From: Aquamicrobium sp.
Lineage (GTDB): Bacteria; Pseudomonadota; Alphaproteobacteria; Rhizobiales; Rhizobiaceae
NCBI GenBank assembly: GCA_019739225.1
Contig: JAHHDT010000005.1
Span: 682,001-746,000, forward strand
Length of the DNA stretch: 64,000 nt
Reading direction: 5' to 3'
Part shown: piece after piece, positions 2,340 through 19,375 of the stretch
Position numbering within the stretch: position 1 is the first letter of the stretch
How the letters are laid out: the number at the start of each line of letters is the position of its first letter
Notes under the pieces: generated by a model
What the model was told of the DNA's origin: nothing
The model's database searches: none
Seen by the model: only the letters and a program-made list of their open reading frames with translations
Made by a program: the position numbers and the translations under genes

Positions 2340-3628
2340 AGGCTGCCGGTAGACTGGACGACCTGCGTGAGGCGTATGTCCGCAAGCACCCGGAAAGCTG
2401 CGCGCGGCACGAGCGCGCGCAGGCATGGATGCCCGGCGGAAATACGCGCAGCGTCCTGCATTTCGATCCGTTCCCGCTCGTCATCGTGTCGGGCAGGGCG
2501 GACATGCTTACCGATGTCGACGGCTACGAATATATCGATTGCGCCGGGGAATTCTCGGCGGGTCTCTATGGCCACAGCGATCCGGTCATCGTGGCTGCAC
2601 TCCACGAGGTGCTGGACAACGGGCTCGTCCTTTCGGGTCCGAATACCGCCGAGAGCGAACTGGCCGAACTGTTGTGCCAGCGCTTTCCTTCGCTGGAGCG
2701 GCTGAGATTCTGCAATTCCGGTACTGAGGCCAACCTCTTCGCGCTTCTGACGGCGATCAACGCAACTGGCCGCAAGCGTGTCCTCGTGTTCGAGGATGCC
2801 TATCATGGCGGCGTTCTCACCTTCGCGGGCGGCGGCAGCCCGATGAACGTCCCGTTCGATTTCGTCACGGCGCCTTTCAACGACATCGAATCCACACGCG
2901 CCAGCGTGAAAGCCTGTGGAAACGAGCTTGCCGCCATCCTGGTCGAGCCGCTGCTGGGCGCGGCCGGCAACATCCCGGCCGAAGCGGCGTTTCTGGCGAT
3001 GCTGCGCGAGGAGGCGGCCCGCTGCGGCGCGGTGCTCATTTTTGATGAGGTGAAGACTTCGCGCCTCGGGCGCGCCGGCCTGCAAGGCCACTACGGTATC
3101 GTGCCCGACATGACGACCCTCGGCAAATATCTCGGCGCGGGCCTGTCCTTTGGCGCGTTCGGCGGCTCGAAGGCCCTGATGGACCGTTTCGATCCGCGCC
3201 TGCCGGGCGCGCTCAAGCATGCGGGAACCTTCAACAACAACATCATGTCGATGAGCGGAGGGCTTGCGGGCCTACGCTCGAGCTTCACACCCGACGCCGC
3301 CGATGCGTTCCTTCAGCGCACCGAGGCTTTCCGCGCGACGGTGAATGCACGGCTGGCGCAGGTGGGCCTCGATGTGTGCCTCAGCGGCATCGGGTCGATA
3401 CTCAGCCTCCATATCGGCGCGCAGCCGCCCATGAAGGTTGCCCAGATACACCCGCAAACGATGCTGCTGAGGCAACTCGTTCACCTGAACTGCCTGGAAC
3501 GCGGCCTCCTCCTGACACCGCGCGGCGACATCTTCCTGTCATTGCCGATGAACGAGGCCCGCCTTGGCGAGATCGCGGAAATCCTGGTGAATGCCGTAAT
3601 CCAGGAAAGCCCTGCCTTGGCAGACTGA
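2336..3628 (+). CDS. Class III aminotransferase, HemL-like
   Basis: A 430-residue PLP enzyme resembling the glutamate-1-semialdehyde 2,1-aminomutase branch of class III aminotransferases. Visible features are WMPGGNTRSV near the N-terminus (HemL-like), FCNSGTEAN (126-133), FDEVKTSR with D237, and the PLP lysine K264 in TTLGKYLGAG. Bacterial HemL-like paralogs in catabolic operons often act as beta- or omega-amino acid transaminases rather than in tetrapyrrole synthesis, and the operon partners here favour catabolism. It overlaps the previous gene by 4 bases. No downstream gene follows on this strand, so it ends the operon. Confidence 0.9.
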   Translation: MKAAGRLDDLREAYVRKHPESCARHERAQAWMPGGNTRSVLHFDPFPLVIVSGRADMLTDVDGYEYIDCAGEFSAGLYGHSDPVIVAALHEVLDNGLVLSGPNTAESELAELLCQRFPSLERLRFCNSGTEANLFALLTAINATGRKRVLVFEDAYHGGVLTFAGGGSPMNVPFDFVTAPFNDIESTRASVKACGNELAAILVEPLLGAAGNIPAEAAFLAMLREEAARCGAVLIFDEVKTSRLGRAGLQGHYGIVPDMTTLGKYLGAGLSFGAFGGSKALMDRFDPRLPGALKHAGTFNNNIMSMSGGLAGLRSSFTPDAADAFLQRTEAFRATVNARLAQVGLDVCLSGIGSILSLHIGAQPPMKVAQIHPQTMLLRQLVHLNCLERGLLLTPRGDIFLSLPMNEARLGEIAEILVNAVIQESPALAD

Positions 3629-3950: not shown

Positions 3951-5120
3951 TCAGGCGCGAGGAAAATCATCTCCGAGTTCCATGATCGTCAGCGCAAGGA
4001 TGCTTGCGCGATCGACCATGCTGTCCAGTTCGATATACTCCTCATCACTGTGATACTTTCCGCCCACCGGGCCGAGGCCGCAAATTGTAGGCGCACCGGC
4101 CGCGGCGGCAAATCCGGAATCCGCTGCTCCATGCGTGAGTTCGCCTGCGAGGCTAATTCCCATTTCGCTTGCAGATGCCTTGTAGCGCTTGAACAGGCTG
4201 TCCGACCCTTCCTCGTTGAACAGTGGCGGGAACTCGCCGTAGATTTCGAACGTGGCAGATGTCCCCTCCACCGAACGGCCGCGCGCAATCGCCGTGATGG
4301 CTTCGACCAGTGGGTCGCGATCGGCGGGCTGGAAATAGCGCAGGTCGATCGAGGCAGTCGCGAAAGGCGCGACGGTGTTGACGGATTGCCCCCCGGAGAT
4401 CAGACCGACATTGATGGAGATATTGCGTTCGAGATCTGTCAGTTGGCGAATCTCGACGATTTTGTGCGCCAGTTCCTCAATGGCGCTGCGACCGTCGCGG
4501 AAGTTGACGCCCGAATGGGCCGACTTGCCATGAACTTCGAGCTTGGCAAAGATGCATCCGCGTCGTGCGACCACGACATTGCCATTGGCGCGACCGGGCT
4601 CGGAATTGAACACTGCGAGGGCTTCGGTCGCCTCCTTGCGAATGATGTCTCCGGACGAGGGAGAAGCGATCTCCTCGTCTCCCGTGTAAAGAAGAACAAT
4701 CGGCGCCGGCGCGCCCCCGAATTTCGCGAACGCGGCTGCGACGAAACTGTTCATCACAAGGCCTGCCTTCATGTCCGCGACCCCGGGGCCATAGGCCCGG
4801 CCGTCCTCCACCCGAAAGGGTCTCTTCAGGGCTTCGCCTTTTGGAAACACGGTGTCGCGGTGCCCCATGACGAGGATGTTTCGGTTTCGGCCGCCCGTGC
4901 CAACGGTGGCCCGGATAACGTCGCCATGCTCCACCATCGACATTACGTCGAAGGGGATCGAATGCTTCTCCAGAAACGCTTCGATGACCTTGCCTGCGCG
5001 GTCGACACCTTCCTTGTCGTAGCTTCCACTGTCGACATTTACCAGTTGCTCGAGCAGGGCAATCATTTCTCCCTCCTGGCTCGCCAGCCAGTCGAGTATG
5101 CGGGTCTTCATGCTATCCAC
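3951..5120 (-). CDS. M20 family metallopeptidase (carboxypeptidase G2-like)
   Basis: A 389-residue zinc hydrolase of the M20 family, probably a glutamate-carboxypeptidase or N-acyl amino acid amidohydrolase. The metal and catalytic residues can be placed: H87 and D89 in GHRDTVFP, D116 in GVADMKAG, E149-E150 in GDEEIASP, and the late ligand in GGKYHSDEEY. No signal peptide is visible, so it is probably cytoplasmic. It is transcribed away from the IclR gene at 5355, and the gap between them holds one of the four shared operator-like sites. It may remove an amide- or peptide-linked group from the substrate brought in by the neighbouring transporter; that role is inferred. Confidence 0.9.
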   Translation of the reverse strand: MDSMKTRILDWLASQEGEMIALLEQLVNVDSGSYDKEGVDRAGKVIEAFLEKHSIPFDVMSMVEHGDVIRATVGTGGRNRNILVMGHRDTVFPKGEALKRPFRVEDGRAYGPGVADMKAGLVMNSFVAAAFAKFGGAPAPIVLLYTGDEEIASPSSGDIIRKEATEALAVFNSEPGRANGNVVVARRGCIFAKLEVHGKSAHSGVNFRDGRSAIEELAHKIVEIRQLTDLERNISINVGLISGGQSVNTVAPFATASIDLRYFQPADRDPLVEAITAIARGRSVEGTSATFEIYGEFPPLFNEEGSDSLFKRYKASASEMGISLAGELTHGAADSGFAAAAGAPTICGLGPVGGKYHSDEEYIELDSMVDRASILALTIMELGDDFPRA

Positions 5121-5301
5121 GTTTCACCATTCCATGTTTCGTATTCGACGTCAGAGCCCATTCTGTCTGCAAGGACGGTCTGCGATGATGCCTTCGCGAT
5201 GCCAATACCGTGCTTGTCTCCTCCCAGGCGCGACCTTGGTTGTGTTGCCAGACATGATCCGGTAGGGAAAATTCAGCTATGGGGGAGTAAAATAGTCGTA
5301 T

Positions 5302-5322
5302 CGTATTGTGATATGCTGTATC
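5302..5322 (+). promoter_or_regulatory. Operator-like site upstream of first IclR gene
   Basis: The sequence CGTATTGTGATATG followed by a GTATC motif matches, with two mismatches in the first 14 bases, a site found also at 6213, 12541 and 14332. It lies 33 bases before the IclR start and in the intergenic region shared with the divergent M20 gene. IclR proteins usually bind palindromic operators near their own promoters, so autoregulation is likely. This is the most diverged of the four sites. Confidence 0.6.
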
Positions 5323-5354
5323 TTAAGTCGCATGGTAATTCAGGGAGGTGACGA

Positions 5355-6146
5355 GTGTCAAACGAAGCGCGCGGGTCGCGCGATGAGGATGGCGGCAGTG
5401 GTCAGCCATCTGTGAAATCGGTCGAGAAGGCCTTCTCGATCCTTTCTGCTTTCAGTGGCCGAGACAGGTTCATGAGCCTCGCCCAGATCTCGCAAGCTGC
5501 GGGGCTCGACAAGAGCGCGGTTCAACGTTTCACGCGAACACTGTGCGGCTTGGGTTATCTCGAACAGGACCCGTCGACTCGCCAGTATTGTTTGGGGCGC
5601 AGGGTGCTAGGGCTCAGCTACGAGTATCTTCGCACCAATTCACTCATCGAGAAGGCCGCTCCGGTGCTGATCGACCTGCGCAGGACTGTGCGCGAACGAG
5701 TTGATTTGACCCTGCGGGATGGAGACGAGGTGGTGTATGTGTTCAGGCTCCAGTCCAAGCGCGAGACGATGCAGGCGGCACTGATCGGCCGCAGGGTGCC
5801 GATGTTCTGTTCGGCGGGTGGACGCGCCATCCTGTCGAGGATGCCGCGCGAAGAGGCTTCGTCTGTCATCCAGGCCACCAATCGGCGCCGCATCACACCG
5901 ATGACGCTTATCGATCCCGATGCGATCATGCATGAAGTGGATACGGCGCGGGAACGTGGCTTCGCGGTGCAGAACCAGGAGTGGAGGCTCGACGAGATCG
6001 TGGCGGCCGCCGCCATTCTGGACACCGACGGCAGGCCGGTCGCAGCCGTTCATATCGCGGCTTCGACAACGGAATGGGACGTCGCGGAATTCAGCGAGCG
6101 CATGGGCCCACTTGTTGCTGCCGCTGCCCAGGACGTGCAGCACTGA
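5355..6146 (+). CDS. IclR family transcriptional regulator (cassette A, first)
   Basis: A 263-residue IclR regulator: N-terminal winged helix (about 20-85, with SLAQISQAAGLDKSAVQRFTRTL as recognition region) and C-terminal ligand-binding domain (about 100-260) including FCSAGGRAILSRM. The start is GTG at 5355, preceded at good spacing by GGGAGGTGA. Its first codons, (G/T)TG TCA AAC, match those of the second IclR gene, supporting both starts. It precedes the hydrolase gene and a tripartite transporter that it probably controls. The two IclR proteins are closely alike through the helix-turn-helix, so they may recognise the same DNA. Confidence 0.95.
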   Translation: MSNEARGSRDEDGGSGQPSVKSVEKAFSILSAFSGRDRFMSLAQISQAAGLDKSAVQRFTRTLCGLGYLEQDPSTRQYCLGRRVLGLSYEYLRTNSLIEKAAPVLIDLRRTVRERVDLTLRDGDEVVYVFRLQSKRETMQAALIGRRVPMFCSAGGRAILSRMPREEASSVIQATNRRRITPMTLIDPDAIMHEVDTARERGFAVQNQEWRLDEIVAAAAILDTDGRPVAAVHIAASTTEWDVAEFSERMGPLVAAAAQDVQH

Positions 6147-6208
6147 TCCAGCCCGACTTACCCTTGACAGCGCCATAACGTTAGGTCCACAGTCGGGCTA
6201 TTCATGAT

Positions 6209-7048
6209 ATGGCGTATTGCAATATGATACATGATGATCAAGTCCGATACTTCGCCGCCAGCGACGGTGTGAAACTCGCATATAGGATCGACGACTTTAC
6301 GGACCCATGGCGTGACGCCGACACCGTCATTCTCAAGCACGCGGCGATGGGCAGCATGAATCGCATGTATGCTTGGGTAACAACGCTCGCTCGTCATTTC
6401 AGGGTCGTGCGCCTCGATATGCGAGGGCACGGTCGCTCGCAGATTCCGGGGCCTGACGGGCTTGCGCTCGATCGTCTGTCGCAAGATGTGGTCGAGCTGA
6501 TGGACGAGATCGGCGTAGAGCGTGCACATGTGGCCGGTTCTTCAGCCGGCGGCATTATCGCCATGTGGACTGCCATCGCTCGTCCGGAGCGCATGAAGAC
6601 GCTGGCTGCCTATGCCACGATCCCCGGCCTCAAGATGTCGGCGGGCCACACCGACTATCAGGGATGGATCAGGGCGATGCGGACCGAGGGGGTCGAGGCC
6701 TTCCTGCGCAGAACCGCGTCCGATCGCTTTGACCTCGACAAGGTCGAGCCGGGCTTTCTCGATTGGTTCGTAACTGAGGCCGCCCGTAACAACGTCGAGA
6801 TGCTGGTACGCATGGTGACTCTGATGTCGAGCACCGATTTTTCGGAGCGGATCGACGAAATCCGCTGCCCGTCTCTCATGGTGGTTCCGGGCGGGGATCC
6901 CAATCAGTCGCCTGAGGAATACGACGTACTCAAGCGCATCCCCGACTGTGATTTCCGGGTCTATGAAGGGTTGCCCCACAACATAACGGATGCCGCGCCG
7001 GAGCGTTGCGCGCGCGACCTCAAGGAGTTCCTGCTCGCGCGTGCCTGA
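6209..7048 (+). CDS. Alpha/beta hydrolase, 3-oxoadipate enol-lactonase-like (cassette A)
   Basis: A 279-residue alpha/beta-hydrolase fold protein. The nucleophile elbow is GSSAG with S112 (counted from this start); an acid residue lies near VVPGGDPN and the catalytic histidine in GLPHNI. The RLDMRGHGRS segment is typical of PcaD and related lactonases or C-C hydrolases. The start is uncertain: ATG at 6209 or 6224 are in frame, neither has a clear ribosome binding site, and the shared operator-like site (6213-6231) lies across both, so the mRNA may be nearly leaderless. A paralog heads cassette B at 14350. The substrate is unknown. Confidence 0.9.
   Translation: MAYCNMIHDDQVRYFAASDGVKLAYRIDDFTDPWRDADTVILKHAAMGSMNRMYAWVTTLARHFRVVRLDMRGHGRSQIPGPDGLALDRLSQDVVELMDEIGVERAHVAGSSAGGIIAMWTAIARPERMKTLAAYATIPGLKMSAGHTDYQGWIRAMRTEGVEAFLRRTASDRFDLDKVEPGFLDWFVTEAARNNVEMLVRMVTLMSSTDFSERIDEIRCPSLMVVPGGDPNQSPEEYDVLKRIPDCDFRVYEGLPHNITDAAPERCARDLKEFLLARA
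6213..6231 (+). promoter_or_regulatory. Operator-like site at the hydrolase start (cassette A)
   Basis: CGTATTGCAATATGATACA, a 19-base copy of the shared motif with palindromic core TATTGCAATA followed by a GATAC box. It overlaps the 5' end of the alpha/beta hydrolase reading frame. This is a strong match to the sites at 14332 and 12541 (reverse strand). The likely binder is one or both of the local IclR proteins, by inference. Confidence 0.7.
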
Positions 7049-7106
7049 TGGTTCGCCGCCAGTACGTCCGGATATTCGACATGGGCTTGATCGAAGGAGA
7101 GATGGA

Positions 7107-8078
7107 ATGAAACTGAAGTCAGGTTTTCTGGCCGGCGCGTTGATCGCGTTTGCCCTGGCAGCGCCCGCGTCAGCGCAGTCGTCGTTTCCCGAGAAGCCGG
7201 TGACCATCATAGTCCCGTTCGGCGCGGGTGGCGGCACCGACAATCTGATCCGCTCCTTCCAGCCCGCACTCGAGAAGGCTCTGGGCAAGCCGGTCGTCAT
7301 CGAGAACCGGCCGGGCGGCGGAAGCACGATCGGCACCGCTGTGGCGGCGCGAGCAAAGGCGGATGGCTACACCGTTCTCGCGGTCGACACCGCGATCACC
7401 GTAAACCCGTCGCTCTATAGCGATCTGCCCTACGACACCCTGAAGGATTTGGCCCCAGTATCCATGCTTGCCACGGGTCCGGTCATTCTTATCGGCAATG
7501 CCGGGGTCGAGGCGAAGACGGTGGACGATATCATCGCCTCTGCCAAGGCCGCGCCTGGTGTCCTCACATTCGCCTCCGGTGGAAACGGGGCGTCCACGCA
7601 TCTCGCACTTGAGTTGATGAAGCAGGTTACGGACATCGACGTCATCCATGTACCTTACAAGGGCACCGGTCCCGCAACGACCGATCTGGTAGGCGGGCAT
7701 GTCCAGTACATGTTCAACGGAATAAGCGCCTCGCGCCCTCACCTGGATTCCGGTGCGGTAATTCCGGTCGCAGTCACGGGTGACGAGCGCAATCCGGCGG
7801 TTCCCGACGTCCCGACTTTCGCTGAATTGGGCTACCCGGACATCGACCCGATGACGATCTGGGGCGCCTGGGTTCCGTCCGGCACACCTGATGATGTCGT
7901 GGGTATCTTGTCGGACGCGTTCCACGAAGCCGTTAACGATCCCGATGTCGTGGGCACCCTCAACGAGCTGGGCTTTTTCCCTGTCGGCAGCACTCCGGCC
8001 GAATACGGCGAGACAGCCACTTCCGAGATCGCCAAGTGGAAGCAGGTCATCGACACTGCGGACATCGTAGTCGAATAG
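7107..8078 (+). CDS. Tripartite tricarboxylate transporter receptor, TctC family (cassette A)
   Basis: A 323-residue periplasmic solute-binding protein. It has a Sec-type signal peptide (MKLKSGFLAGALIAFALAAPASA, cleavage near residue 23), then FPEKPVTIIVPFGAGGGTDNL, a hallmark of the Bug/TctC family. The start at 7107 follows GGAGAG; longer upstream reading overlaps the hydrolase and lacks a signal peptide. TctC proteins capture carboxylates and pass them to the TctA/TctB membrane pair; here the partners are at 8906 and 9347, separated by an SDR gene. Ligand unknown, probably a small or aromatic carboxylate. Confidence 0.94.
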   Translation: MKLKSGFLAGALIAFALAAPASAQSSFPEKPVTIIVPFGAGGGTDNLIRSFQPALEKALGKPVVIENRPGGGSTIGTAVAARAKADGYTVLAVDTAITVNPSLYSDLPYDTLKDLAPVSMLATGPVILIGNAGVEAKTVDDIIASAKAAPGVLTFASGGNGASTHLALELMKQVTDIDVIHVPYKGTGPATTDLVGGHVQYMFNGISASRPHLDSGAVIPVAVTGDERNPAVPDVPTFAELGYPDIDPMTIWGAWVPSGTPDDVVGILSDAFHEAVNDPDVVGTLNELGFFPVGSTPAEYGETATSEIAKWKQVIDTADIVVE

Positions 8079-8093
8079 CATCGGAGTGGCACG

Positions 8094-8858
8094 GTGAGCG
8101 ACTTTCAAGATCGAACAGTCGTCATCGTCGGCGGCGCGAGCGGGATAGGCCGAGCAGCAGCCGACCTGTTCGCCCGAGCGGGGGCCGAGGTCGTGATCTG
8201 CGACATCGACGACGCTGCGGGACGCGAGGCGGCGGCGGAGATCGGCGCCGGCTCGCGTTTCGTCGCGATGGACGTAACGCAGGATGCGTCTGTGCGATCT
8301 GCAATAGACCCGCTGGCGCGGATATCCGTGCTGGTCAACTGCGCGGGCGGGTCGATGGTGGAGGACGATGTCGTTACCGACGTCGACCTGGACCTGGTTT
8401 GGGACCGCACCATCGACATCAACCTCCGTGGAACGTTCCTGACATGCCGATACGCGATCCCGAAGATGATACGGGGCGGCGGCGGATCGATCGTGAACCT
8501 CTCGTCGGGGGCCGCATTGCGCGGGGCAAGTCCATCGCATGTCTATACGGCTGCGAAGGGCGCGGTTCTGTCGCTTACACGAGCCATTGCCGGCCGCTAT
8601 GCGCGCGACGGCATCCGAGCGAACGCGGTGTGCTCGGGCCGCGTTTATACCGACCGCATCGTGGCCGCTTATGGACGGCTTGGCGAGGCCGGCGCCAATG
8701 TCGACGTTCAGGACGCGGAGGGCAGGAGCGTCGAATATCCCTTCTGGACGGGCGAACCGGTCGACATGGCGGAAGTCATTGTGTTCCTCGCCGGTGAAGG
8801 ATCGCGAATGATCACCGGCGCGACGATACAGGCCGATGGCGGCCGCTCGGCCTATTAG
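8094..8858 (+). CDS. Short-chain dehydrogenase/reductase (SDR)
   Basis: A 254-residue classical SDR starting at GTG 8094. The NAD(P)-binding motif GGASGIG (about 13-19), the NCAGG segment, the catalytic serine in NLSSGA and the YTAAK catalytic pair are all present, as is the C-terminal ITGATIQADGG. The aspartate in VVICDIDDA suggests NAD(H) rather than NADP(H). The gene is embedded between tctC and tctB, exactly where cassette B carries a ketopantoate-reductase-like gene, so it probably oxidises or reduces the imported compound or a hydrolysis product. Confidence 0.93.
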   Translation: MSDFQDRTVVIVGGASGIGRAAADLFARAGAEVVICDIDDAAGREAAAEIGAGSRFVAMDVTQDASVRSAIDPLARISVLVNCAGGSMVEDDVVTDVDLDLVWDRTIDINLRGTFLTCRYAIPKMIRGGGGSIVNLSSGAALRGASPSHVYTAAKGAVLSLTRAIAGRYARDGIRANAVCSGRVYTDRIVAAYGRLGEAGANVDVQDAEGRSVEYPFWTGEPVDMAEVIVFLAGEGSRMITGATIQADGGRSAY

Positions 8859-8905
8859 CGGCCACCAACACCGAACGATCCGGAAACGACGGGAGCAGGC
8901 TTGGC

Positions 8906-9340
8906 ATGGCAGTGACGAAAGATCTCTTGTCCGGCGCGATCTTCGCGTTGGTCGGACTGATCGTGGTGATCGAGGCGCAGAACCACGCGATGGGTTCTCT
9001 GCTGCGAATGGGACCGGGGTATTATCCGACGTTCGTCGGTGTCCTCGCCATACTCATCGGCGCGGCGCTGATCGCCAAGTCAGTGATGCAGGGTGGTCCG
9101 GCCGTGCCGCGTATAGCGTTTCGCGAAACTGCAATACTGACCGCCTCCATCATCGTGTTCGCCGTTTCGCTGGAGCGTCTGGGGCTGGTCATCTCGACCT
9201 ACCTACTGATCGGCATAGGCAGTCTGGCCGCACGTCCCTACCGTCCACTGGAAACCTTGCTGCTCTCCACGGCACTCGTCATCGTGGGGGCGGCGGTCTT
9301 CTGGTGGTTTCTGCAACTGCCAATCCCCCTCTGGCCCTGA
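8906..9340 (+). CDS. Tripartite tricarboxylate transporter small membrane subunit, TctB family (cassette A)
   Basis: A 144-residue protein with about four hydrophobic segments (roughly 9-26, 44-62, 76-95, 98-136) and the LLRMGPGYYPTFVG motif characteristic of TctB. The small subunit of the transporter pairs with TctA, encoded six bases downstream. The spacing and order (B then A) are normal; having an enzyme gene between C and B is less usual and is repeated in cassette B. Confidence 0.9.
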   Translation: MAVTKDLLSGAIFALVGLIVVIEAQNHAMGSLLRMGPGYYPTFVGVLAILIGAALIAKSVMQGGPAVPRIAFRETAILTASIIVFAVSLERLGLVISTYLLIGIGSLAARPYRPLETLLLSTALVIVGAAVFWWFLQLPIPLWP

Positions 9341-9346
9341 TAGACG

Positions 9347-10870
9347 ATGGAACTCCTTCAAAATCTCGCATTCGGGTTCGGCGTCGCGCTCAGCTTCTCG
9401 AACATTCTCTACTGCCTGATAGGCGTCACCGTAGGCACCTTCGTCGGCGTCCTTCCGGGCATCGGACCGATGGCCGCGATCTCCATGCTGCTGCCGATCA
9501 CATTCGGGCTCGATCCCGTCGGTGCGCTGATCATGCTGGCGGGAATTTACTACGGCGCGCAGTTCGGTTCCTCCGTAACTTCGATCCTTCTCAATATCCC
9601 CGGTCACGCTGCTGCCGCCGTCATCTGTCTCGATGGCCATCCGATGGCAAAGCAGGGCAGAGCAGCGGTCGGGCTGGTTGGCAGCGCCATTGCATCTTTC
9701 ATCGGCGGCAGTCTTGCCATCATTCTTGTCATGCAGTTCGCGCCACCGCTGGCCGTCTTCGCGCTGCGTTTCGGGCCGACGGAATATTTCTCGATGATGT
9801 TGCTGGCGTTGCTGGCGGCCGCGGCGCTCACTCAGGGTTCGTTCCTGCGCGGTTTCGGGATGGTCGTGATGGGGCTGATCATCGGCACTGTCGGCATCGA
9901 CGTCAATTCCGGCGCGCAACGCCTCACATTCGGAAACTGGAATCTCGCGGATGGCGTTTCCTTCGTCATCGTGGCGATGGGCTTCTTTGCAATCGCGGAG
10001 GTGCTTTCCAATCTGGAGCCGAATTCAAAGCCGCAGATGATCGGGTCGGACTTCAAGTGGCGTGAACTTGTGCCGACCTGGCATGATTTCAAACAAGCGT
10101 TCGGTTCCATCATCCGTGGCTTCGGCGTCGGCTCTTTGTTTGGCGTTCTGCCCGGCAGCGGCCCGACTATCGCGTCGTTCGTTTCCTACTCAGTGGAAAA
10201 GAAGGTATCTCGAACTCCGGAAAGGTTCGGAAAAGGCGCGCTCGAAGGCGTCACCGGGCCGGAATCCGCCAACAACGCCGCGGCGGTAGCCGGTTTCATA
10301 CCGACGCTGACCCTGGGTGTTCCCGGCGATGCCATCATGGCCCTGATGCTCGGTTGCCTGATGATCTTCGGCATCCAACCTGGACCGAGCGTCATTACCG
10401 ACAATCCCGAACTTTTCTGGGGTCTGATGGCGAGCATGTGGATAGGCAACTTGCTGTTGCTGATCCTCAACATTCCGATGGTCGGTGTATGGGTCAGGGT
10501 CCTGAAGATTCCTTATCGCATCCTGTTCCCGTCGATCCTGCTGTTCATTTGCATCGGCGTTTATGCGACCAACAACAACGTGTTCGACATTCTCATGCTG
10601 GCAGGCTTCGGTGTCGTCGGCTACGTTCTATCGAAACTCGACTGTCCGGCCGCGCCGCTGCTGCTGGGTGTGATCCTCGGTCCATTGATCGAAGAGAACC
10701 TGCGGCGCGCGCTCTTGATCAGCGGTGGAGACCCTAGCGTTTTCATCACTCACCCGATCAGCCTTGGCCTGCTCCTCGTAGCGGCCGCAGTCGTGGTTGT
10801 CTTCAGCTATTCAGGACTTCGCGCCCGCTCCAATAAGCCGGCGCCCATCGCTTCGCCCGACAACGACTAG
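9347..10870 (+). CDS. Tripartite tricarboxylate transporter large permease, TctA family (cassette A)
   Basis: A 507-residue polytopic inner-membrane protein of the TctA family, normal length and roughly 10-12 membrane spans. It shows the family signature VLPGIGPMAAISMLLP near residue 38 and a second copy-like segment GVLPGSGPTIASF near 263, the glycine/proline motifs of the internal repeat. It drives carboxylate uptake with an ion gradient. It is close to, but clearly not identical with, the TctA of cassette B at 17817. Confidence 0.95.
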   Translation: MELLQNLAFGFGVALSFSNILYCLIGVTVGTFVGVLPGIGPMAAISMLLPITFGLDPVGALIMLAGIYYGAQFGSSVTSILLNIPGHAAAAVICLDGHPMAKQGRAAVGLVGSAIASFIGGSLAIILVMQFAPPLAVFALRFGPTEYFSMMLLALLAAAALTQGSFLRGFGMVVMGLIIGTVGIDVNSGAQRLTFGNWNLADGVSFVIVAMGFFAIAEVLSNLEPNSKPQMIGSDFKWRELVPTWHDFKQAFGSIIRGFGVGSLFGVLPGSGPTIASFVSYSVEKKVSRTPERFGKGALEGVTGPESANNAAAVAGFIPTLTLGVPGDAIMALMLGCLMIFGIQPGPSVITDNPELFWGLMASMWIGNLLLLILNIPMVGVWVRVLKIPYRILFPSILLFICIGVYATNNNVFDILMLAGFGVVGYVLSKLDCPAAPLLLGVILGPLIEENLRRALLISGGDPSVFITHPISLGLLLVAAAVVVVFSYSGLRARSNKPAPIASPDND

Positions 10871-10879
10871 GAGCCCGAG

Positions 10880-11719
10880 ATGGGATCGCACAAAGTATGC
10901 CTATCCTTTGATTTCGACGCCATGACCGGAATGGTCGCGCGCGGATTGAAGACCCCCACACCGATCTCGCGCGGCGAGTTCGGCGCGATCGGAGTGGAGC
11001 GCATCCTGCGCACGCTCGAGGACTCGAATATCCTCGGATCCTGGTTTGTGCCGGGAACCGTGATCAAGACATATCCTGAGCTTTGTCGGAAAATCTATGC
11101 CGCGGGCCACGAAATCGGCAATCATGGCTGGACACACGTTCCCCCGGCCAGCCTCTCGCCCGAGAGCGAAGAATCGGGCCTTGTCCGTGCCAACGAAGCC
11201 ATTGTCGAGATAACCGGCGCTCCGCCCGCAGGCTACCGATCGCCTTCCTGGGATCTGAGCCCCGTGACAATCGACCTTCTGATCAGGCATGGCTTTGTCT
11301 ACGACAGCAGCATGATGGGTCACGATTGCCAAGCCTATTTTGCTCGTACTGGCGATATCGTCCACGACGAGGAGCCGATCGAGTTCGGCAAGGAATCGAA
11401 ACTCGTGGAACTCCCTGTGAGCTGGTCGCTCGACGATTTTCCGCATTTCGAATATCTGCGCATGCCCAATTCGTTGGCTCCAGGCCTCGCCAATGCGCGC
11501 CTGGTCCTTGAGAACTTCCTTGCCGATTTCGATTACATGCAGAGAACCGAAGAGACGGGCTTCCTGGTGTACACCTTCCATCCATTCGTCGTCGGACGTG
11601 GGCATCGCATGGAGCTGCTGGAAAAGCTCATCGAGGGGCTGAAGAAGCGAGGCGCCGAATTCGTCCGAATGGACGAGGTCGCGCGCGAGTTTCTAGCCGC
11701 CTCTGAAAATCGAACCTGA
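10880..11719 (+). CDS. Polysaccharide deacetylase family hydrolase, possibly a cyclic amidase
   Basis: A 279-residue NodB-fold hydrolase. The metal and catalytic residues fit: FDFD at 10-13, H81 and H85 in GNHGWTH, the YRSPSWDLS loop near 120, and a late histidine in YTFHPF. There is no signal peptide, so it acts in the cytoplasm. This argues against cell-wall deacetylation and for the subgroup that includes PuuE allantoinase and cyclic imide hydrolases. A role in opening a C-N bond of the imported compound is inferred from its place at the end of the transporter operon. It ends 6 bases from the convergent IclR gene. Confidence 0.88.
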   Translation: MGSHKVCLSFDFDAMTGMVARGLKTPTPISRGEFGAIGVERILRTLEDSNILGSWFVPGTVIKTYPELCRKIYAAGHEIGNHGWTHVPPASLSPESEESGLVRANEAIVEITGAPPAGYRSPSWDLSPVTIDLLIRHGFVYDSSMMGHDCQAYFARTGDIVHDEEPIEFGKESKLVELPVSWSLDDFPHFEYLRMPNSLAPGLANARLVLENFLADFDYMQRTEETGFLVYTFHPFVVGRGHRMELLEKLIEGLKKRGAEFVRMDEVAREFLAASENRT

Positions 11720-11725
11720 TACCCA

Positions 11726-12502
11726 TCATCGGGAGATTTCCTGCGCTGCCGAGACGATGAGGGACGCGACACGTTCCTCGAAACGCGAGATCGACCATTC
11801 GTTGAGGCTCGCGGCTACGTGAACCGCCGCGACCGGAGTGCCGTCGCTGTCCGTAATCGCAGCGGCGGCGGCGACTTCATCCAGCTTGCCCTCTTCGGCC
11901 TGTATCGCGTAACCCCGATCGCGCGCCCGGCGAACCGCCTGCATGATCGCCTCGACATCCGTCTGTGTCTTAGGCGTGCGCTTGAGCCTGTCCGAGCGTG
12001 TCACGATCGCATGAGCTTCCTCATCGGAAAGCTTGGACAACATGGCCCGTCCGCCGGCCGAAAAATACAAAGGAAGGCGGCGGCCGATGAGCCCCGCGGA
12101 GTAGGTCTCGCGCTTGTGCTGCAGGCGCATGACATAGAGCAGCATATCTCCGTGCCGCAGTGAGAGATCTACACGTTCCTGCAGCGTGTTGCGCAGATCC
12201 AGAAGGATGGGGGCGGCTCGCGCGATGAGTTCCTGCCCGCGAAGAAAATCGAACGATACAGCAAGTATCTGCCGTCCAAGCGCGAAGCGACGCGTATTCG
12301 GATCCTGCTCCAGATAGCCGCGCTGGACCAGCGTATGGGTGAAGCGCTGGACAGCGCTCTTGTCGAGACCAGTGGCCTTAACGAGATCGCCCAGGCTGAG
12401 ATGGCGCGGCCGATCCTCGAAGGCCTCAAGTATGTCCAATGCCTTGAACACAGATTTCACGTTGAGTGGGTTGTCCGTCCTCGGCTTCGCAATGTTTGAC
12501 AA
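11726..12502 (-). CDS. IclR family transcriptional regulator (second)
   Basis: About 258 residues with winged helix (LSLGDLVKATGLDKSAVQRFTHT region) and C-terminal effector domain (YFSAGGRAMLSKL). I place the start at TTG 12502, because GGGAGGGAG precedes it and the codons TTG TCA AAC match the start of the first IclR gene; an in-frame ATG at 12529 would add nine residues but has no ribosome binding site. It is a paralog of the regulator at 5355. It is divergent from the carboxymuconolactone-decarboxylase-like gene, with the shared operator motif between them. Confidence 0.93.
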   Translation of the reverse strand: MSNIAKPRTDNPLNVKSVFKALDILEAFEDRPRHLSLGDLVKATGLDKSAVQRFTHTLVQRGYLEQDPNTRRFALGRQILAVSFDFLRGQELIARAAPILLDLRNTLQERVDLSLRHGDMLLYVMRLQHKRETYSAGLIGRRLPLYFSAGGRAMLSKLSDEEAHAIVTRSDRLKRTPKTQTDVEAIMQAVRRARDRGYAIQAEEGKLDEVAAAAAITDSDGTPVAAVHVAASLNEWSISRFEERVASLIVSAAQEISR

Positions 12503-12540
12503 AAACTCCCTCCCGGATACAAAATTCATTTGGCGCTATT

Positions 12541-12560
12541 ATGTATCGCATTGCAATACA
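12541..12560 (-). promoter_or_regulatory. Operator-like site between second IclR gene and CMD gene
   Basis: Read on the minus strand this is TGTATTGCAATGCGATACAT, matching the sites at 6213 and 14332 at nearly every position. It lies about 40 bases before the TTG start of the IclR gene and about 80 bases before the divergent CMD gene, so it could control both. Confidence 0.7.
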
Positions 12561-12637
12561 ATAGTCCAGCCTTATCGCCATGTTGGAACCTAGGAGGCCG
12601 GTCATTTCACGAAGTCGCCGGCCGGAAGAGAGAGAAT

Positions 12638-13201
12638 ATGTCACGACTTCCACCGGTTGAGGATTCGGCCGTTCAGGAACTTTTCGCACGCATTGCTGAA
12701 AGCCGCGGATGGGTGTCCAATCTGCTTGGCGCCCTAGGGCATTCGCCGAAGGCGCTAGATGCTTTTCAGCGGCTGGGCCATTTCGGGCGATACGAAACCG
12801 ATCTCACTGAGCGCGAGCGAGAACTGGTCATCGTCATCGCAGGCCGCTCTGTGCCTTATGCCTGGGCGCATCATGCGCCTCTCGCCATGCAGGTGGGGAT
12901 TACCGAGACGCAACTCGACAAGATCAAGAGGGGAGAGGTGCCTGAAGGGTTATCCGCTTCAGAAGCGGCCTTGTGCGCCTACTGCCTGGCGTACACCTCG
13001 TTCAAGGGCATACCCGACGACGTATTTTCCACGCTGTCGAGTCACTATTCGAACCGACAGGTCACCGATATCAGCGTCCTATCGAGCTACTATCTCGGCG
13101 CCGGAGCTATTCTGATCGGGCTGAAGATCGTAACAGAGCCACCGGAGGTCCTGCAGATCGAACTCGATTGGCAGAAGAAGACGATGGCCGCATCCGACTG
13201 A
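12638..13201 (+). CDS. Carboxymuconolactone decarboxylase-like protein
   Basis: A 187-residue, mostly helical protein of the CMD/AhpD fold. The region LTERERELVIVIAGRSVPYAWAHHAPLA aligns with the CMD core helix. The CxxC pair of the peroxidase branch is absent while the histidine is kept, which favours the decarboxylase-like branch over AhpD. ATG 12638 is chosen because it follows an AGAGAG sequence; earlier starts would run through the operator region. Similar proteins sit in aromatic-acid pathways (PcaC), and two PcaD-like hydrolases lie nearby. The reaction is not known. Confidence 0.82.
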   Translation: MSRLPPVEDSAVQELFARIAESRGWVSNLLGALGHSPKALDAFQRLGHFGRYETDLTERERELVIVIAGRSVPYAWAHHAPLAMQVGITETQLDKIKRGEVPEGLSASEAALCAYCLAYTSFKGIPDDVFSTLSSHYSNRQVTDISVLSSYYLGAGAILIGLKIVTEPPEVLQIELDWQKKTMAASD

Positions 13202-13208
13202 CGCTCCT

Positions 13209-13240
13209 GCGCCGACGGCTATTGATCCCGCCGTCGGCGC
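13209..13240. terminator. Hairpin between convergent CMD and DapA-family genes
   Basis: A perfect 10-base inverted repeat, GCGCCGACGG (13209-13218) and CCGTCGGCGC (13231-13240), with a 12-base loop, sits in the gap between two converging genes. There is no long T-run, so termination would be weak or factor-assisted, but position and symmetry suit a bidirectional terminator. Confidence 0.55.
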
Positions 13241-14232
13241 TAAGTCGCGTTGGGCCTGTCTGCATCAATCAGTCCTTCGCTCGCGAGCACAGCCAAGCAT
13301 TCACGCAACTCTTCAGGGCCGGGGCGCGCGATCGGTGCCCGCACTGGCCCTGTCACCATTCCAAGGCGGCCAGCCAACGCCTTGAAGAGCCCGACATGGT
13401 GAAACCCGCTGGCGAAGTATCTGCTCTGGAGCTTTTCCGCGATCGCGAGAATTGTGCGCATGTGCACGGCGGCTTCGTCGTGACGGCCGCTCATCATCGC
13501 GTCGAAGAATCTTCCGCAATGAGGTCGGTCTCGCGTTTGGCAGAAGATAGGGCGAGAAGAGCCGATCATGAAATCCGGGGTTGCATCCGGGAAAGCTGAT
13601 TTGCCAAAGAAGAAATACTCTTCGAGGGAGGTAGCGACCGGTAGACGATCCCCGACGGCTCGCAGCATTGAAGCGTATTGTGCCAGATTGAGCGTTGTAT
13701 TCTGTACTCCGCATATATTGGGAATGTGTAGCAAGTCGGCGACCTGACTGGGATCGAGATAGTAGCCGAGCTCCGAAAGAGTGGTGCTGTAGACCAGCAT
13801 GCCGACATCGAGATCCGCCGCTACCGCCTCGTAGTAGGCGCGTACACCCGATGCGTCTCGAGGGCCGTAATAGGAAGGCCATACCATCACCAGGTCGGCC
13901 CCCGCAGATTGCGCATGCCGGCAGAAATCGGCGGTCGCCTTCCATGACGGATCGGTGCAGCCGACGATGACGGGCATGCGGCCTGCCACCTCGTCGATCG
14001 TCGCTTCAACCAGCCGTCGCCGCTCGTCCGTGGTCAGTGTCCAGTATTCCTGATGCAGCGTATTGACCGAGATGCCCCCAACGCCGGGCAAATCCATGGT
14101 GCGGCGTACATTGGCCCGAAGGCCACTGAAGTCTATGGCGCCGTCCGTGTCGAAGGGTGTGTAAAGCGCCGTCATGTAGCCTTTGAGGTTCGACCTAACC
14201 CACGCAGCCGCACCGGCTCTGTCGTATTTCAT
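13240..14232 (-). CDS. DapA/NanA-family protein lacking the Schiff-base lysine
   Basis: A 330-residue TIM-barrel protein of the dihydrodipicolinate synthase/N-acetylneuraminate lyase family. The start ATG 14232 follows GGGAG; an earlier in-frame codon is possible. The barrel strands are recognisable (MTALYTPF, GISVNTLHQEYWTLT, PVIVGCTD), and the conserved tyrosine is kept (Y148 in MLVYSTT). At the position of the essential Schiff-base lysine (usual motif GIK) the sequence reads ICGVQNTT, with Q177. Without that lysine it is unlikely to be a class I aldolase; it may be a hydratase, lactonase-like or binding protein. It is divergent from the cassette B hydrolase, with an operator motif between. 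Confidence 0.88.
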   Translation of the reverse strand: MKYDRAGAAAWVRSNLKGYMTALYTPFDTDGAIDFSGLRANVRRTMDLPGVGGISVNTLHQEYWTLTTDERRRLVEATIDEVAGRMPVIVGCTDPSWKATADFCRHAQSAGADLVMVWPSYYGPRDASGVRAYYEAVAADLDVGMLVYSTTLSELGYYLDPSQVADLLHIPNICGVQNTTLNLAQYASMLRAVGDRLPVATSLEEYFFFGKSAFPDATPDFMIGSSRPIFCQTRDRPHCGRFFDAMMSGRHDEAAVHMRTILAIAEKLQSRYFASGFHHVGLFKALAGRLGMVTGPVRAPIARPGPEELRECLAVLASEGLIDADRPNAT

Positions 14233-14331
14233 GTGTTTCGACTCCCGTCCGATTGGCGCGTCTCGCACCTTGCGCGCTAGACGCGCTTGACAATGTGGAC
14301 CAATCAGGCTGAACTAACAATACGACATAAA

Positions 14332-14350
14332 GTATTGCAATACGATACAA
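14332..14350 (+). promoter_or_regulatory. Operator-like site before the cassette B hydrolase
   Basis: GTATTGCAATACGATACAA, the cleanest copy of the shared motif, with the full palindrome GTATTGCAATAC. It ends at the first base of the hydrolase ATG (14350) and also lies in the region shared with the divergent DapA-family gene. A TTGACA hexamer is present at 14287, but I see no good -10 element at the right spacing. Confidence 0.7.
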
Positions 14351-15240
14351 TGATGTTGCGGGTCAGGATGGCGCGTTCAGTCATCGACCTCGGAAACGGC
14401 GAGCGCAGCGAGGCCAAATTGAAGCACTTCCAGACGAGCGATCATGAACGGATCGCCTATTGCATCGACGATTTCAGCGATCCCTGGGCGCCGGCGCCGA
14501 CAGTCCTGATGCTCCATTCGCTGATGGGTCATTCCGGCAGGTTCCATGCGATGGTGCCGGCTCTGGCGCGATACTTCCGCGTCGTGCGTATGGACATGCG
14601 CGGACACGGGGGGTCGACCGTCCCGGACAGGACCAAACCGCTGACGCTCGAGCGGATGACGCAGGACGTACGCGAACTTTTGGATCATCTGGAACTCGAC
14701 GGCGCCCATGTGATCGGCAATTCCGCGGGCGGCTACCTGTCGCAGACGCTGGCCATAGAAAGCCCCGAGCGGGTAACAAGCCTGAGCCTGTTCGGCTCGA
14801 CGCCAGGCCTCAGTCGAAGCGGCGCGGCGAAATGGCTTCCGCAGATCGCCGAGAAAGGACTTCGCCCCTTCCTCGCGGAAACCATTTCCGACCGGTTTCC
14901 GGTCGAGCAGGAAAAACACGAGAAGATCGAGTGGTTTCTCGATGAATGCGCGAAGAACGACACCGGTTTCATCACTGCTGCGCTCGAGCTGTTCACGTCG
15001 CTGGACTGGAGCGACAAGCTCTCCGAAATCCGATGCCCAACCCTGATTGTCGCGGCCGGCGGCGAGACAGTCGGAAGCGCCGACCACTATACCGATATGA
15101 AGCAGCGCATCTTGGATTCGACCCTCATCTACTACCAGGACATGCCGCACAACATCTGTGACATCCAGCCGGATCGCTGTTCCGACGACGTGCTGCATTT
15201 TCTCAGATGGAATTTCCCGGCGCTCGACCACATCCGTTAG
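14350..15240 (+). CDS. Alpha/beta hydrolase, 3-oxoadipate enol-lactonase-like (cassette B)
   Basis: About 296 residues; paralog of the hydrolase at 6209, sharing the IDDFSDPW segment, the RMDMRGHGGS motif, the nucleophile elbow GNSAG and the catalytic-histidine segment DMPHNI. Start choice is open: ATG 14350 or 14368 are both possible and neither has a strong ribosome binding site; a TTG at 14287 would put the operator inside the gene and is unlikely. It is the first gene of the cassette B transporter operon. Substrate unknown; a lactone, ester or C-C bond of a ring-cleavage product would fit the family. Confidence 0.9.
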   Translation: MMLRVRMARSVIDLGNGERSEAKLKHFQTSDHERIAYCIDDFSDPWAPAPTVLMLHSLMGHSGRFHAMVPALARYFRVVRMDMRGHGGSTVPDRTKPLTLERMTQDVRELLDHLELDGAHVIGNSAGGYLSQTLAIESPERVTSLSLFGSTPGLSRSGAAKWLPQIAEKGLRPFLAETISDRFPVEQEKHEKIEWFLDECAKNDTGFITAALELFTSLDWSDKLSEIRCPTLIVAAGGETVGSADHYTDMKQRILDSTLIYYQDMPHNICDIQPDRCSDDVLHFLRWNFPALDHIR

Positions 15241-15309: not shown

Positions 15310-16290
15310 ATGACCATCACCAGACGCATTCTTCTCGGCGGGCTCGCCGCGGGCGCCGCCATTGCTTCCTTCGCTTCCTCATCGGCACTTGCTCAGGACT
15401 GGCCCACGGAAACCATCACCATTCTCGTCGGATATCCGGCCGGCGGCGCGAACGATCTCGTGGCCCGGGCGATGACGGACGGCCTGTCGGAACGGCTCGG
15501 CGTTTCCGTGGTGGTGGAAAACCGCACCGGCGCCGCCGGCGTGGTGGCCGGCGACGCGACGTGGCGCGCGGAACCCAACGGATACACGCTGTACATGATG
15601 TCGAGCGCGCAGACGCTGGCCCCCAGCATCCGGGAAGTCAGTTTTGATCCGGCAGCATTCGAGCCGATAGCACTGGGCGCATCCGGAAGCTATCTGCTAC
15701 TGACACGCAAGGATCTCGGAGCCGGGACGGTCCCCGATCTCATCGCCATGGCGAAGGAAAAGCCCGGCGCGCTGACCTATGCTTCGTCGGGGATCGGCGC
15801 CGGACCGCATCTGACCGGCGAACTTTTCAAGACGATGGCGGAGGTCGATATTCTTCACGTGCCTTATCGCGGAGACACGCCGGTACTGACTGACATGCTC
15901 GCGGGCCGTGTCGACATGGGCTTCGTCGCGGTGGCGCCGTCGCAACAGTATGTCGAGAACGGAGATCTTGTCGCGCTCGCCGTGTCCGGCGCGGAACGCG
16001 TTGACACGTTCTCCGAGCTCCCGACGGTCGAGGAAGCGGGAAATCTCGAAGGCTTCGCCATGGGAGCGTGGTGGGGCCTGGTCGCTCCGCCCGAGACGCC
16101 GCAGGAGATCGTGGACCGCGTTACCGAGGCTGCGATCGAAACATTGGCGACCGAGAAAGTTCAGTCGACCCTCACCGGGCTGGGCTTCGAGCCGGGTTCG
16201 CTGTCGGGCGCCGAGTTCGGCGAGTTCATTGCGTCGGAGGTCGGAAAGTTCGCCGGCATCGTCGAGAAGGCGAAGATCGAGGTCGAGTAA
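15310..16290 (+). CDS. Tripartite tricarboxylate transporter receptor, TctC family (cassette B)
   Basis: A 326-residue periplasmic binding protein with the family segment WPTETITILVGYPAGGANDLVA just after the export signal. The signal starts MTITRRILLGGLAAGAAIA and contains a twin-arginine-like pair, so Tat export is possible, unlike the Sec-type signal of the cassette A receptor. It is followed directly by a ketopantoate-reductase-like gene and then tctB and tctA. The ligand is unknown but probably related to that of cassette A, since the flanking hydrolases and regulators are paralogous. Confidence 0.94.
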   Translation: MTITRRILLGGLAAGAAIASFASSSALAQDWPTETITILVGYPAGGANDLVARAMTDGLSERLGVSVVVENRTGAAGVVAGDATWRAEPNGYTLYMMSSAQTLAPSIREVSFDPAAFEPIALGASGSYLLLTRKDLGAGTVPDLIAMAKEKPGALTYASSGIGAGPHLTGELFKTMAEVDILHVPYRGDTPVLTDMLAGRVDMGFVAVAPSQQYVENGDLVALAVSGAERVDTFSELPTVEEAGNLEGFAMGAWWGLVAPPETPQEIVDRVTEAAIETLATEKVQSTLTGLGFEPGSLSGAEFGEFIASEVGKFAGIVEKAKIEVE

Positions 16291-16291
16291 C

Positions 16292-17374
16292 GTGGCTCAC
16301 GGATCCGTTGCGATCCTCGGTGCCGGTGCCATAGGCGGATATGTCGGCGCGATGCTGCATTGCGCCGGCGTGCCGGTGGTTCTGGTCGATCACTGGTCGG
16401 AGCATGTCGAGGCGGTCCGCCGCCACGGGCTTCGTATCGAGAGCTCCGAGGGAAACTTGATCGAGCATCCGCCGATCTTTCACATATCGCAGATGCAGGC
16501 AGTGTGCGCGCACGCGCCCGAACTCTCGATCATGAGCGTGAAACTCTACGATACCGAATGGGCGGCGGCGCTTCTCGCTACATATTTGGAGGCGCGCGTG
16601 CCGATCATCACCCTTCAGAACGCGCTCGTGGAGGAGACCGTCGCGCGCATCGTGGGGTGGCAACGAACGCTCGGCGGCATAGCAACCGGCATGAACGTCG
16701 AGTTGACCGAGCCTGGCGTTGTGCGCCGGATGAGTGCCCGTTTTTCCGGCGCACCTGTCTTCAAGATCGGCGAACTGAGCGGACGCGATACGCCGCGCGT
16801 TCGTCACGCGGTTGAACTGCTCTCCACGGTTGATACGTCGGTCGTCACCACCGACCTCTGGAACGACCGCTGGCTGAAACTCACCATCAACTCGATGGTG
16901 TCTCCTCTTGGAGCATTGTCCGACCTGCCGCTCGATCAGGTGCTAATGCGGCCGGATGCGCAGCAGATCGTGACCCGTCTGGCGGCCGAATGTTTCGCAG
17001 TCGGCGAGGCGCTGGGCTTTGTCCCGCATCCTGTCTTCGGACTGGAAGGAAGCGGATGGCGCAAAGCGGCCGAGGGAGACCCTGATGCGTGTTCAGCCGT
17101 CGACCAGGCCTGTCGCCGCGAGGCGGGCCGGGTCGCGAAGGGCTATGTTTCCGGCACCGGGCAGGACCTTCGCAAAGGGCGCAAGAGCGAGGTCGATTTT
17201 TTCAACGGATATATTGCCGCGCGAGGGAGGGAATGCGGCGTAGATGCGCTCACACATTCAGCCGTGGCGCGCACGGTCAAAGCGATCGAGGCGGGACAAT
17301 TCGTGCCCGAAATCGGTCTTTTGGCGCAATTAGGAGGGCGATCGACAACAGCTCGAGGGGTACAGGGGCAATGA
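16292..17374 (+). CDS. Ketopantoate reductase (PanE/ApbA) family dehydrogenase
   Basis: A 360-residue NAD(P)-dependent dehydrogenase starting at GTG 16292, one base after the tctC stop. The Rossmann motif GAGAIGGYVG is near residue 10; the family lysine appears in NDRWLKLTINS, and the RKGRKSEVDFFNGYI block that ends PanE active sites is present. Family members reduce 2-oxo acids or oxidise 2-hydroxy acids. Being locked between tctC and tctB, it is more likely a catabolic dehydrogenase for the imported acid than pantothenate synthesis. It overlaps tctB by 4 bases (ATGA). Confidence 0.9.
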   Translation: MAHGSVAILGAGAIGGYVGAMLHCAGVPVVLVDHWSEHVEAVRRHGLRIESSEGNLIEHPPIFHISQMQAVCAHAPELSIMSVKLYDTEWAAALLATYLEARVPIITLQNALVEETVARIVGWQRTLGGIATGMNVELTEPGVVRRMSARFSGAPVFKIGELSGRDTPRVRHAVELLSTVDTSVVTTDLWNDRWLKLTINSMVSPLGALSDLPLDQVLMRPDAQQIVTRLAAECFAVGEALGFVPHPVFGLEGSGWRKAAEGDPDACSAVDQACRREAGRVAKGYVSGTGQDLRKGRKSEVDFFNGYIAARGRECGVDALTHSAVARTVKAIEAGQFVPEIGLLAQLGGRSTTARGVQGQ

Positions 17375-17820
17375 GGACCACAGTGCGGGATCCGCAGAAT
17401 CTGCTGTTCGGTGTTTTTCTGATCCTTCTGGGTGCCGGCGGCGTCTATTTCGGGGCGCGCCTGGACATGGGAAGCGCGCTGGACATGGGACCGGGCTACA
17501 TGCCCACCATCCTGAGCGGCGCCATACTGGCCATGGGTGTCGGCTTCACGCTGTTCTCCTTCGTCCATGCTGGAGCGGCCATCTCCAATGTGGCATGGCG
17601 TGGTCTGGTCGTCGTCCTATCGGTGGTCGTGCTCTTCGGCCTCTCCATCAAATGGCTGGGACTGATGGTAACCATCGTGATCTCGGTGATGCTGTCCGCG
17701 CTCGCCACGCCGAATAGGTCGTGGATGCAAACCGCGATCTTCGCCATCGTCCTCGCTGCGGCTTGCGTGCTCGTGTTCAACGTCGCCCTCAATCTCCCGC
17801 TTCCGGTGTGGCCAAGATGA
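17371..17820 (+). CDS. Tripartite tricarboxylate transporter small membrane subunit, TctB family (cassette B)
   Basis: A 149-residue, four-span membrane protein. The start ATG 17371 overlaps the stop of the dehydrogenase gene, and the end overlaps the tctA start by 4 bases. The ALDMGPGYMPTILSG motif is the TctB signature. Partner of the permease that follows. Confidence 0.9.
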   Translation: MRTTVRDPQNLLFGVFLILLGAGGVYFGARLDMGSALDMGPGYMPTILSGAILAMGVGFTLFSFVHAGAAISNVAWRGLVVVLSVVVLFGLSIKWLGLMVTIVISVMLSALATPNRSWMQTAIFAIVLAAACVLVFNVALNLPLPVWPR

Positions 17821-19322: not shown

Positions 19323-19375
19323 CGGCAGTGGCCAATCTCGTCACCGCACGGTGCGGATTCCGGACGGGGGGCTGA

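Follow-up and report, generated by a model that had tools for sequence, protein, structure and literature searches.

The window analysed here is a 64-kb stretch of the Aquamicrobium sp. genome, and all coordinates below are window positions unless another contig is named. It contains 2 gene cassettes, each with its own IclR-family regulator gene (iclR1 and iclR2), and 4 copies of a palindromic DNA motif that we describe as candidate operators of these regulators. The genes and the 4 motif cores (sites 1 to 4; the cores are listed without a strand) are arranged as follows:

3951–5120, − strand: M20/M25/M40-family metallohydrolase gene (PF01546, PF07687), predicted target of site 1
5298–5314: site 1 core GTATCGTATTGTGATAT, between the M20-family gene (−) and iclR1 (+), 21.9 bits
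5355–6146, + strand: iclR1, IclR-family regulator gene, with a 68% identical ortholog in Afifella
6214–6230: site 2 core GTATTGCAATATGATAC, overlapping the likely start codon of hydrolase 1, 24.2 bits
6224–7048, + strand: hydrolase 1, alpha/beta fold, PcaD-like but under the family cut-off; ATG at 6224 or 6209
7107–11719, + strand: remainder of cassette 1 (TctC-like receptor, SDR, TctB, TctA, polysaccharide-deacetylase-family protein), with orthologs in the same order in Afifella and in genome G299
11726–12499, − strand: iclR2, IclR-family regulator gene; inferred TTG start following GGGAGGGAG, with the longest open reading frame running from 12529
12543–12559: site 3 core GTATCGCATTGCAATAC, between iclR2 (−) and the CMD-family gene (+), 25.7 bits
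12638–13201, + strand: carboxymuconolactone-decarboxylase-family (CMD) gene (PF02627, 25.1 bits, cut-off 23), predicted target of site 3
13240–14268, − strand: dihydrodipicolinate-synthase-family gene (PF00701), divergent to hydrolase 2
14332–14348: site 4 core GTATTGCAATACGATAC, upstream of hydrolase 2, 25.4 bits
14368–15240, + strand: hydrolase 2, alpha/beta fold; start at 14368 or 14350
15310–20668, + strand: remainder of cassette 2 (TctC, ApbA/PanE-type reductase, TctB, TctA, MFS transporter), with orthologs in the same order in G299

Both regulators exceed the cut-offs of the IclR helix-turn-helix (HTH) domain (PF09339) and the IclR effector domain (PF01614), and they are 55.6% identical to each other. 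The between-cassette identities of the other products are 41% (hydrolase), 35% (TctC), 29% (TctB), and 54% (TctA). The names TctC and TctB in cassette 1 are presumed ones, given by gene position.

An earlier note on this DNA had proposed the motif GTATTGCAATAYGATACA, which is indeed present at 6214 (+ strand, no mismatches), 14332 (+ strand, no mismatches), and 12542–12559 (− strand, 1 mismatch). At up to 3 mismatches, the motif has 3 matches in the window, where 0.01 would be expected, and none of 100 shuffles reached 3. The diverged fourth copy that the note had listed is also real and lies at 5298–5314 (GTATCGTATTGTGATAT), with 3 mismatches to the pattern shortened by one base. The palindromic core that had been read into the motif, TATTGCAATA, turned out not to capture its principal symmetry, and the form common to relatives is a 17-bp palindrome with an odd centre, GTATYGNNNNNCRATAC. 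This register came from a training set of 80 loci of other named genomes with regulator relatives 43–60% identical (the best 80 of 244 confirmed). A palindromic de novo motif search with random starts in the iclR upstream regions of these loci converged on GTATYGNNNNNCRATAC, whose matrix position 3 is A in 99%. The leading inverted 5-mers upstream of iclR were GTATC-N7-GATAC (19 of the 80 loci) and GTATT-N7-AATAC (16 of 80), and 20 base shuffles yielded at most 3. A second training on 63 of the 80 loci, from which the nearest 24-row clade was excluded, reached a likelihood score of 713 versus 29–35 for four shuffled sets. A 12-bp perfect form, GTATTGCAATAC, was rejected as the operator, since it occurs upstream in only 6 of the 80 relatives.

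When the 80-locus matrix was run over the window, the top 4 places were sites 3, 4, 2, and 1. The runner-up (15.8 bits) overlaps site 3, the next separate place scored 13.9 bits, and 60 dinucleotide shuffles stayed at or below 17.6 bits. The 63-locus matrix placed the same 4 sites first, in the same order (24.8, 24.5, 23.1, and 20.4 bits), with the next separate place at 12.6 bits. The note placed each copy at the 5' end of either an IclR gene or a hydrolase gene, which is correct by position and incomplete as a list: sites 1 and 3 sit in divergent intergenic regions, where they are aligned with the promoters of the M20-family and CMD-family genes, so that these 2 promoters should probably be added to the hydrolases as targets. 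The separate place at 13.9 bits (42849–42865) is just beyond the 3' end of an FdhD-family open reading frame and is within the shuffle range.

The hexamer TTGACA occurs 4 times in positions 5201–14400, both strands counted, each time 39–44 nt upstream of a core, and the 4 copies point toward the M20-family gene, hydrolase 1, the CMD-family gene, and hydrolase 2. The predicted promoter elements are:

5332–5361, − strand: M20-family promoter, TTGACA (5361–5356), 18 nt, TACCAT; the −35 overlaps the iclR1 start codon
6164–6193, + strand: hydrolase 1 promoter, TTGACA, 18 nt, CACAGT
12496–12525, + strand: CMD-family promoter, TTGACA, 18 nt, CAAAAT; the −35 overlaps the inferred iclR2 start codon
14287–14292, + strand: hydrolase 2 promoter, −35 hexamer TTGACA; ill-defined −10 (GAACTA at 18 nt)

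In a generic promoter scan, the M20-family and CMD-family promoters were the 2 best (10 of 12 positions each), and the scan total of 5 promoters was not above that of shuffles (3.5). The same arrangement was found in the wider family, for which 91 sites of at least 14 bits were collected from 103 loci. An exact TTGACA on the iclR side, 20–60 nt from the core and pointing away from iclR, accompanies 31 of the 91 sites (200 shuffles: mean 0.75, at most 4) and is absent from that zone in the other 60. Its distance is 38–42 nt in 20 cases, 26–30 nt in 9, and 45–47 nt in 2, and at the −10 position 18 nt away, 25 non-redundant cases have the first T at 0.60, the second A at 0.56, and the last T at 0.88. 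At hydrolases 1 and 2, TTGACA is present although no iclR gene starts there, and in Afifella and G299 the hydrolase 1 copy likewise precedes the site by 42 nt (a count made by eye). Positions 22–3628, which lie upstream of the M20-family gene, hold an edge-cut hydantoinase-B/oxoprolinase gene and 2 aminotransferase-like genes.

A further element, a possible third half-site, was seen at site 1:

5318–5322, + strand: GTATC, separated by 3 bp from the site 1 core, toward iclR1

In the family, 55 of the 91 sites have a third half-site of more than 2 bits on the side facing iclR, 4 bp away from the core. The divergent layout, that is to say −35 and core, is present in many relatives, often together with a third half-site. 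A full tandem operator next to the window sites was ruled out, the best score there being 0.5 bits.

The motif was also found where the cassettes occur in relatives. Afifella sp. IM 167 carries cassette 1 in the same order, with IclR1, hydrolase, and TctA 68%, 80%, and 87% identical, and has sites of 22.2 and 22.1 bits at the places of site 1 and site 2. G299, a genome of the same taxonomic order, has both cassettes side by side; at its orthologous promoters, hydrolases 1 and 2 retain weaker sites (15.7 and 12.9 bits), and the best score at the CMD gene is 2.4 bits. Its IclR1 gene is cut off by a contig end, and IclR2 was not found at E <= 1e-30 in this 91% complete genome, with all 42 candidates scored. 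Across the relatives, an upstream match of at least 10 bits is present in 73 of 80, a count that is not independent because the same loci trained the matrix. Beyond the iclR upstream zone, the 80 loci hold 60 more matches versus 21 in one full shuffle, and some of these are positioned directly 3' of iclR, like site 2. In other families, too, iclR relatives have the motif upstream.

Orthologs of hydrolase 1 and of hydrolase 2 were each found in 3 of 397 same-order genomes, the own genome counted and up to 6 candidates scored per genome. A search of 385 same-class genomes yielded one further relative of hydrolase 2, whose surrounding 17.5 kb lacks any other cassette gene; at E <= 1e-75, IclR2 was found in none but the own genome. 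Among 72,556 plasmid records, 24 carry a relative (E <= 1e-50), all below 60% identity. Two were examined: L153 has a 20.9-bit site upstream of iclR, and L152 has sites elsewhere, one of 15.6 bits before the next gene (TctB) and one of 21.1 bits further on.

Within the own genome, 150 of 314 first-look candidates were scored in a search for IclR-HTH genes, and 16 matches were found. The motif is upstream of 3 of these 16 (IclR1, 21.9 bits; IclR2, 25.7 bits; a paralog on contig C6, 19.6 bits), and the other 13 have upstream scores of at most 12.2 bits. The C6 gene (C6:274772, L033) belongs to the same IclR subfamily as a third member, and its copy of the motif, GTATCGACAGGCGATAC, is identical in 2 related genomes (L021 and L022). 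One of the 16 matches, L140, looks MarR-like.

The frequency of the motif across the genome, which the note would have counted against its reading if random, was covered by pattern searches. The pattern shortened by one base has 10 genome-wide matches at up to 3 mismatches versus 3 for a reversed-pattern control, 2 of the 10 merely overlapping sites 3 and 4 on the opposite strand. A relaxed pattern at up to 1 mismatch has 41 matches versus 42 for its control, so that the overall count is at control level, and the 4 window sites are the top-scoring of these 41 places. This control-level count shows no trace of a large regulon, and the regulon looks small and local. Two other places scored well, and both are unproven: C6:924539 (L150; 19.6 bits), between genes read as a GntR/MocR-type regulator and an EamA-like transporter, with no adjacent IclR gene, and C5:655726 (19.7 bits), outside IclR genes.

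The motif, its link to one IclR subfamily, its placement, and its recurrence in relatives were obtained by computation. We consider it highly probable that the 4 sites are operators of this subfamily, located just past 4 promoters, and that IclR1 and IclR2 are local regulators acting by repression and ligand release. The IclR-type operator at 4 promoters that the earlier note had proposed is well supported by the independent matrix, by the lack of the motif upstream of 13 of the 16 IclR-HTH matches, and by sites at orthologous promoters in Afifella and, more weakly, in G299, with its register and target list corrected as above. In the mechanism we propose, IclR1 and IclR2 would recognise operators of the form GTATYGNNNNNCRATAC, each core being about 40 bp past the −35 of a predicted promoter that leads into genes with a putative role in breakdown or uptake, namely the M20-family and CMD-family genes and the operons of hydrolases 1 and 2. 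A regulator bound just beyond the expected transcription start would block the promoter until released by a small molecule that these pathways import or produce. Autoregulation could be added at sites 1 and 3, which also precede iclR1 and iclR2. Binding, repression rather than activation, the transcription start, and the ligand are in this scheme predictions from sequence.

Several observations weigh against this interpretation. (i) The 91 family rows are 88 distinct ones. In 23 of the 31 family cases, TTGACA overlaps an in-frame iclR NTG codon (NTG TCA A), and at sites 1 and 3 it falls on the start codons of the iclR genes; its conservation may therefore be partly coding, and the overlap reflects either conservation of a Met-Ser start or a −35 that incorporates a start codon. 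(ii) The −10 of hydrolase 2 (GAACTA) is poor, and the TTGACA of hydrolase 2 in G299 is 33 nt from the site (counted manually). (iii) The third half-site is clear at site 1 alone among the 4 window sites, an exact GTAT occupies the third box in just 16 of the 91 family sites, and no full tandem copy accompanies the window sites. (iv) Among the relatives, 7 of 80 are without an upstream match of 10 bits, the G299 sites score just 12.9 and 15.7 bits with none at the CMD gene, and the plasmid relative L152 has no site of 11 bits upstream of iclR.

If the 4 sites are operators of one subfamily, a second question is whether both regulators use all of them, as in the cross-regulated two-repressor circuit of the earlier note. 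We regard such sharing as plausible, with the chances about even. The HTH regions are alike, as the earlier note had stated, with 59% identity over a 37-residue stretch; this stretch was taken by a pattern requiring QR, which makes the constancy of QR one of construction, and 6 non-fitting rows were dropped. The recognition helices of IclR1 and IclR2 match (GLDKSAVQRFT). The sites do not sort by cassette: identities across cassettes are 13, 14, 15, and 16 of 17, and those within cassettes are 13 and 16, with equal averages. For comparison, the site of the C6 paralog is 11–13 of 17 alike to the window sites, sites of regulators with 55–65% HTH identity are 12.1 alike on average (787 pairs), and 2 sites within one iclR locus are 13.9 alike on average (22 pairs).

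The mean likeness of the 4 window sites is 14.5 of 17. Random unmatched quartets from the family average 11.9 and reach 14.5 in 0.3% of draws, a rarity that is partly due to the strength of the window sites: score-matched quartets of at least 21.9 bits have a mean of 13.3, with 14.5 attained in 5.3% of draws, and for those of at least 23 bits the share is 17%. Site likeness was accordingly dropped as proof of a shared operator, and the score-matched result lowered our estimates, for sharing from somewhat favoured to even, and for a two-input gate from a little under even to a more guarded level. In a quick tree, IclR1 forms a group with its Afifella and G299 counterparts (support 99), and IclR2 is placed outside this group, in the same 8-row clade (99); the support is SH-aLRT (approximate likelihood ratio test) only, and IclR2 is on a long branch. 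This placement indicates that recent duplication does not explain the site likeness.

The strongest alternative to sharing is a pair of insulated circuits, in which IclR1 would act on sites 1 and 2 only and IclR2 on sites 3 and 4 only; we hold this to be a serious possibility, somewhat short of an even chance. The sites would then be alike as strong matches to one subfamily motif, in keeping with the 5.3% and 17% left after score matching. The 55.6% identity of the 2 regulators, their separation in the tree, and the lack of a CMD site in G299, where iclR2 is also missing, fit insulation as well, and DNA-binding proteins up to 60–70% identical may read different motifs (accessible text of PMC8222616). 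By contrast, the identical recognition helices, the equal averages across and within cassettes, and the 0.3% of unmatched quartets speak against insulation, and G299 keeps a weak hydrolase 2 site with IclR2 not found there at E <= 1e-30. Should sharing hold, we would tentatively suggest 2 diverged IclR-type repressors on one operator, with the cassettes opening only when both are released (a two-input gate), and with the −35 of the subfamily's divergent target doubling as the regulator start (NTG TCA A), which would physically tie both.

A different view holds that the regulators are activators or dual-role proteins acting on other promoters not recognised here. Activators and dual regulators of the IclR family exist (PMC8222616, as far as its accessible text goes), and BhcR has been proposed as dual (PMC11323563, likewise); all 4 cores, however, are downstream of a predicted −35, 3 of them with a fair −10, a position that suits a repressor, and we judge the activator view unlikely. 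That the repeats are leftovers of a duplication of cassette DNA and not functional operators is very improbable: both cassettes do hold iclR, hydrolase, TctC, TctB, and TctA genes, and the 60-bp upstream flanks of sites 1 and 3 show 45% likeness versus a 97.5% random limit of 38%, a likeness due to both holding iclR 5' ends, but the other 5 upstream (22–33%) and 6 downstream (18–27%) comparisons are at the random level (mean 26%), and the motif recurs in other families.

The reading of the 4 sites as repressor operators can be compared with known IclR systems. In the accessible text of PMC8222616, group 1 operators of the IclR family follow GKTYCRYW3-4RYGRAMC, with tandem sites 18–22 nt apart and three-box sites. 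The window motif has the same odd-length palindrome size and symmetry, agrees at most positions, and likewise lies upstream of a regulator gene and adjoining units. It differs at position 3, with A instead of the consensus T (GTAT...ATAC), and it is outside the 4 named group 1 subgroups TGT, GTT, WTT, and NGT of that text. The strings GTAT and ATAC are absent from the main text of PMC8222616; the motif class may already stand in its supplementary site tables. In the accessible parts of the open-licence literature surfaced (PMC8222616, PMC13273656, PMC11323563, and PMC12285266), this operator was not found.

A parallel in layout is offered by the three-box operators of the PcaU/PobR type, which consist of a palindrome and a third half-site in alternating direction (PMC8222616, same text); the PcaU operator differs in sequence (TTTGTTCGATWATCGMACAMA), and the third box in the window is clear at one of the 4 sites. 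The best NCBIfam match of IclR1 and IclR2 is TIGR02431 (PcaR/PcaU/PobR), at 178.9 and 162 bits, under its curated cut-off of 284.75; against BhcR (NF045644) they score 126.9 and 113.7 bits, under a cut-off of 350. PheR of Sphingobium, as described in the accessible text of PMC13273656, is an IclR-family repressor whose footprint spans the transcription start from +23 to −21; it differs in its operator sequence and controls phenanthrene breakdown. The present work gives an operator sequence for an IclR branch spread over Alpha- and Betaproteobacteria, and the matrix can propose target genes for uncharacterised relatives. If the sites were indeed shared, they would be a natural example of paralogous sensors that have retained a single recognition sequence, with a bearing on the merging or separation of catabolic regulons. 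Compared with these known systems, the window holds a well-supported operator set of an already known type of switch, and its possible sharing by 2 repressors is the part worth testing.

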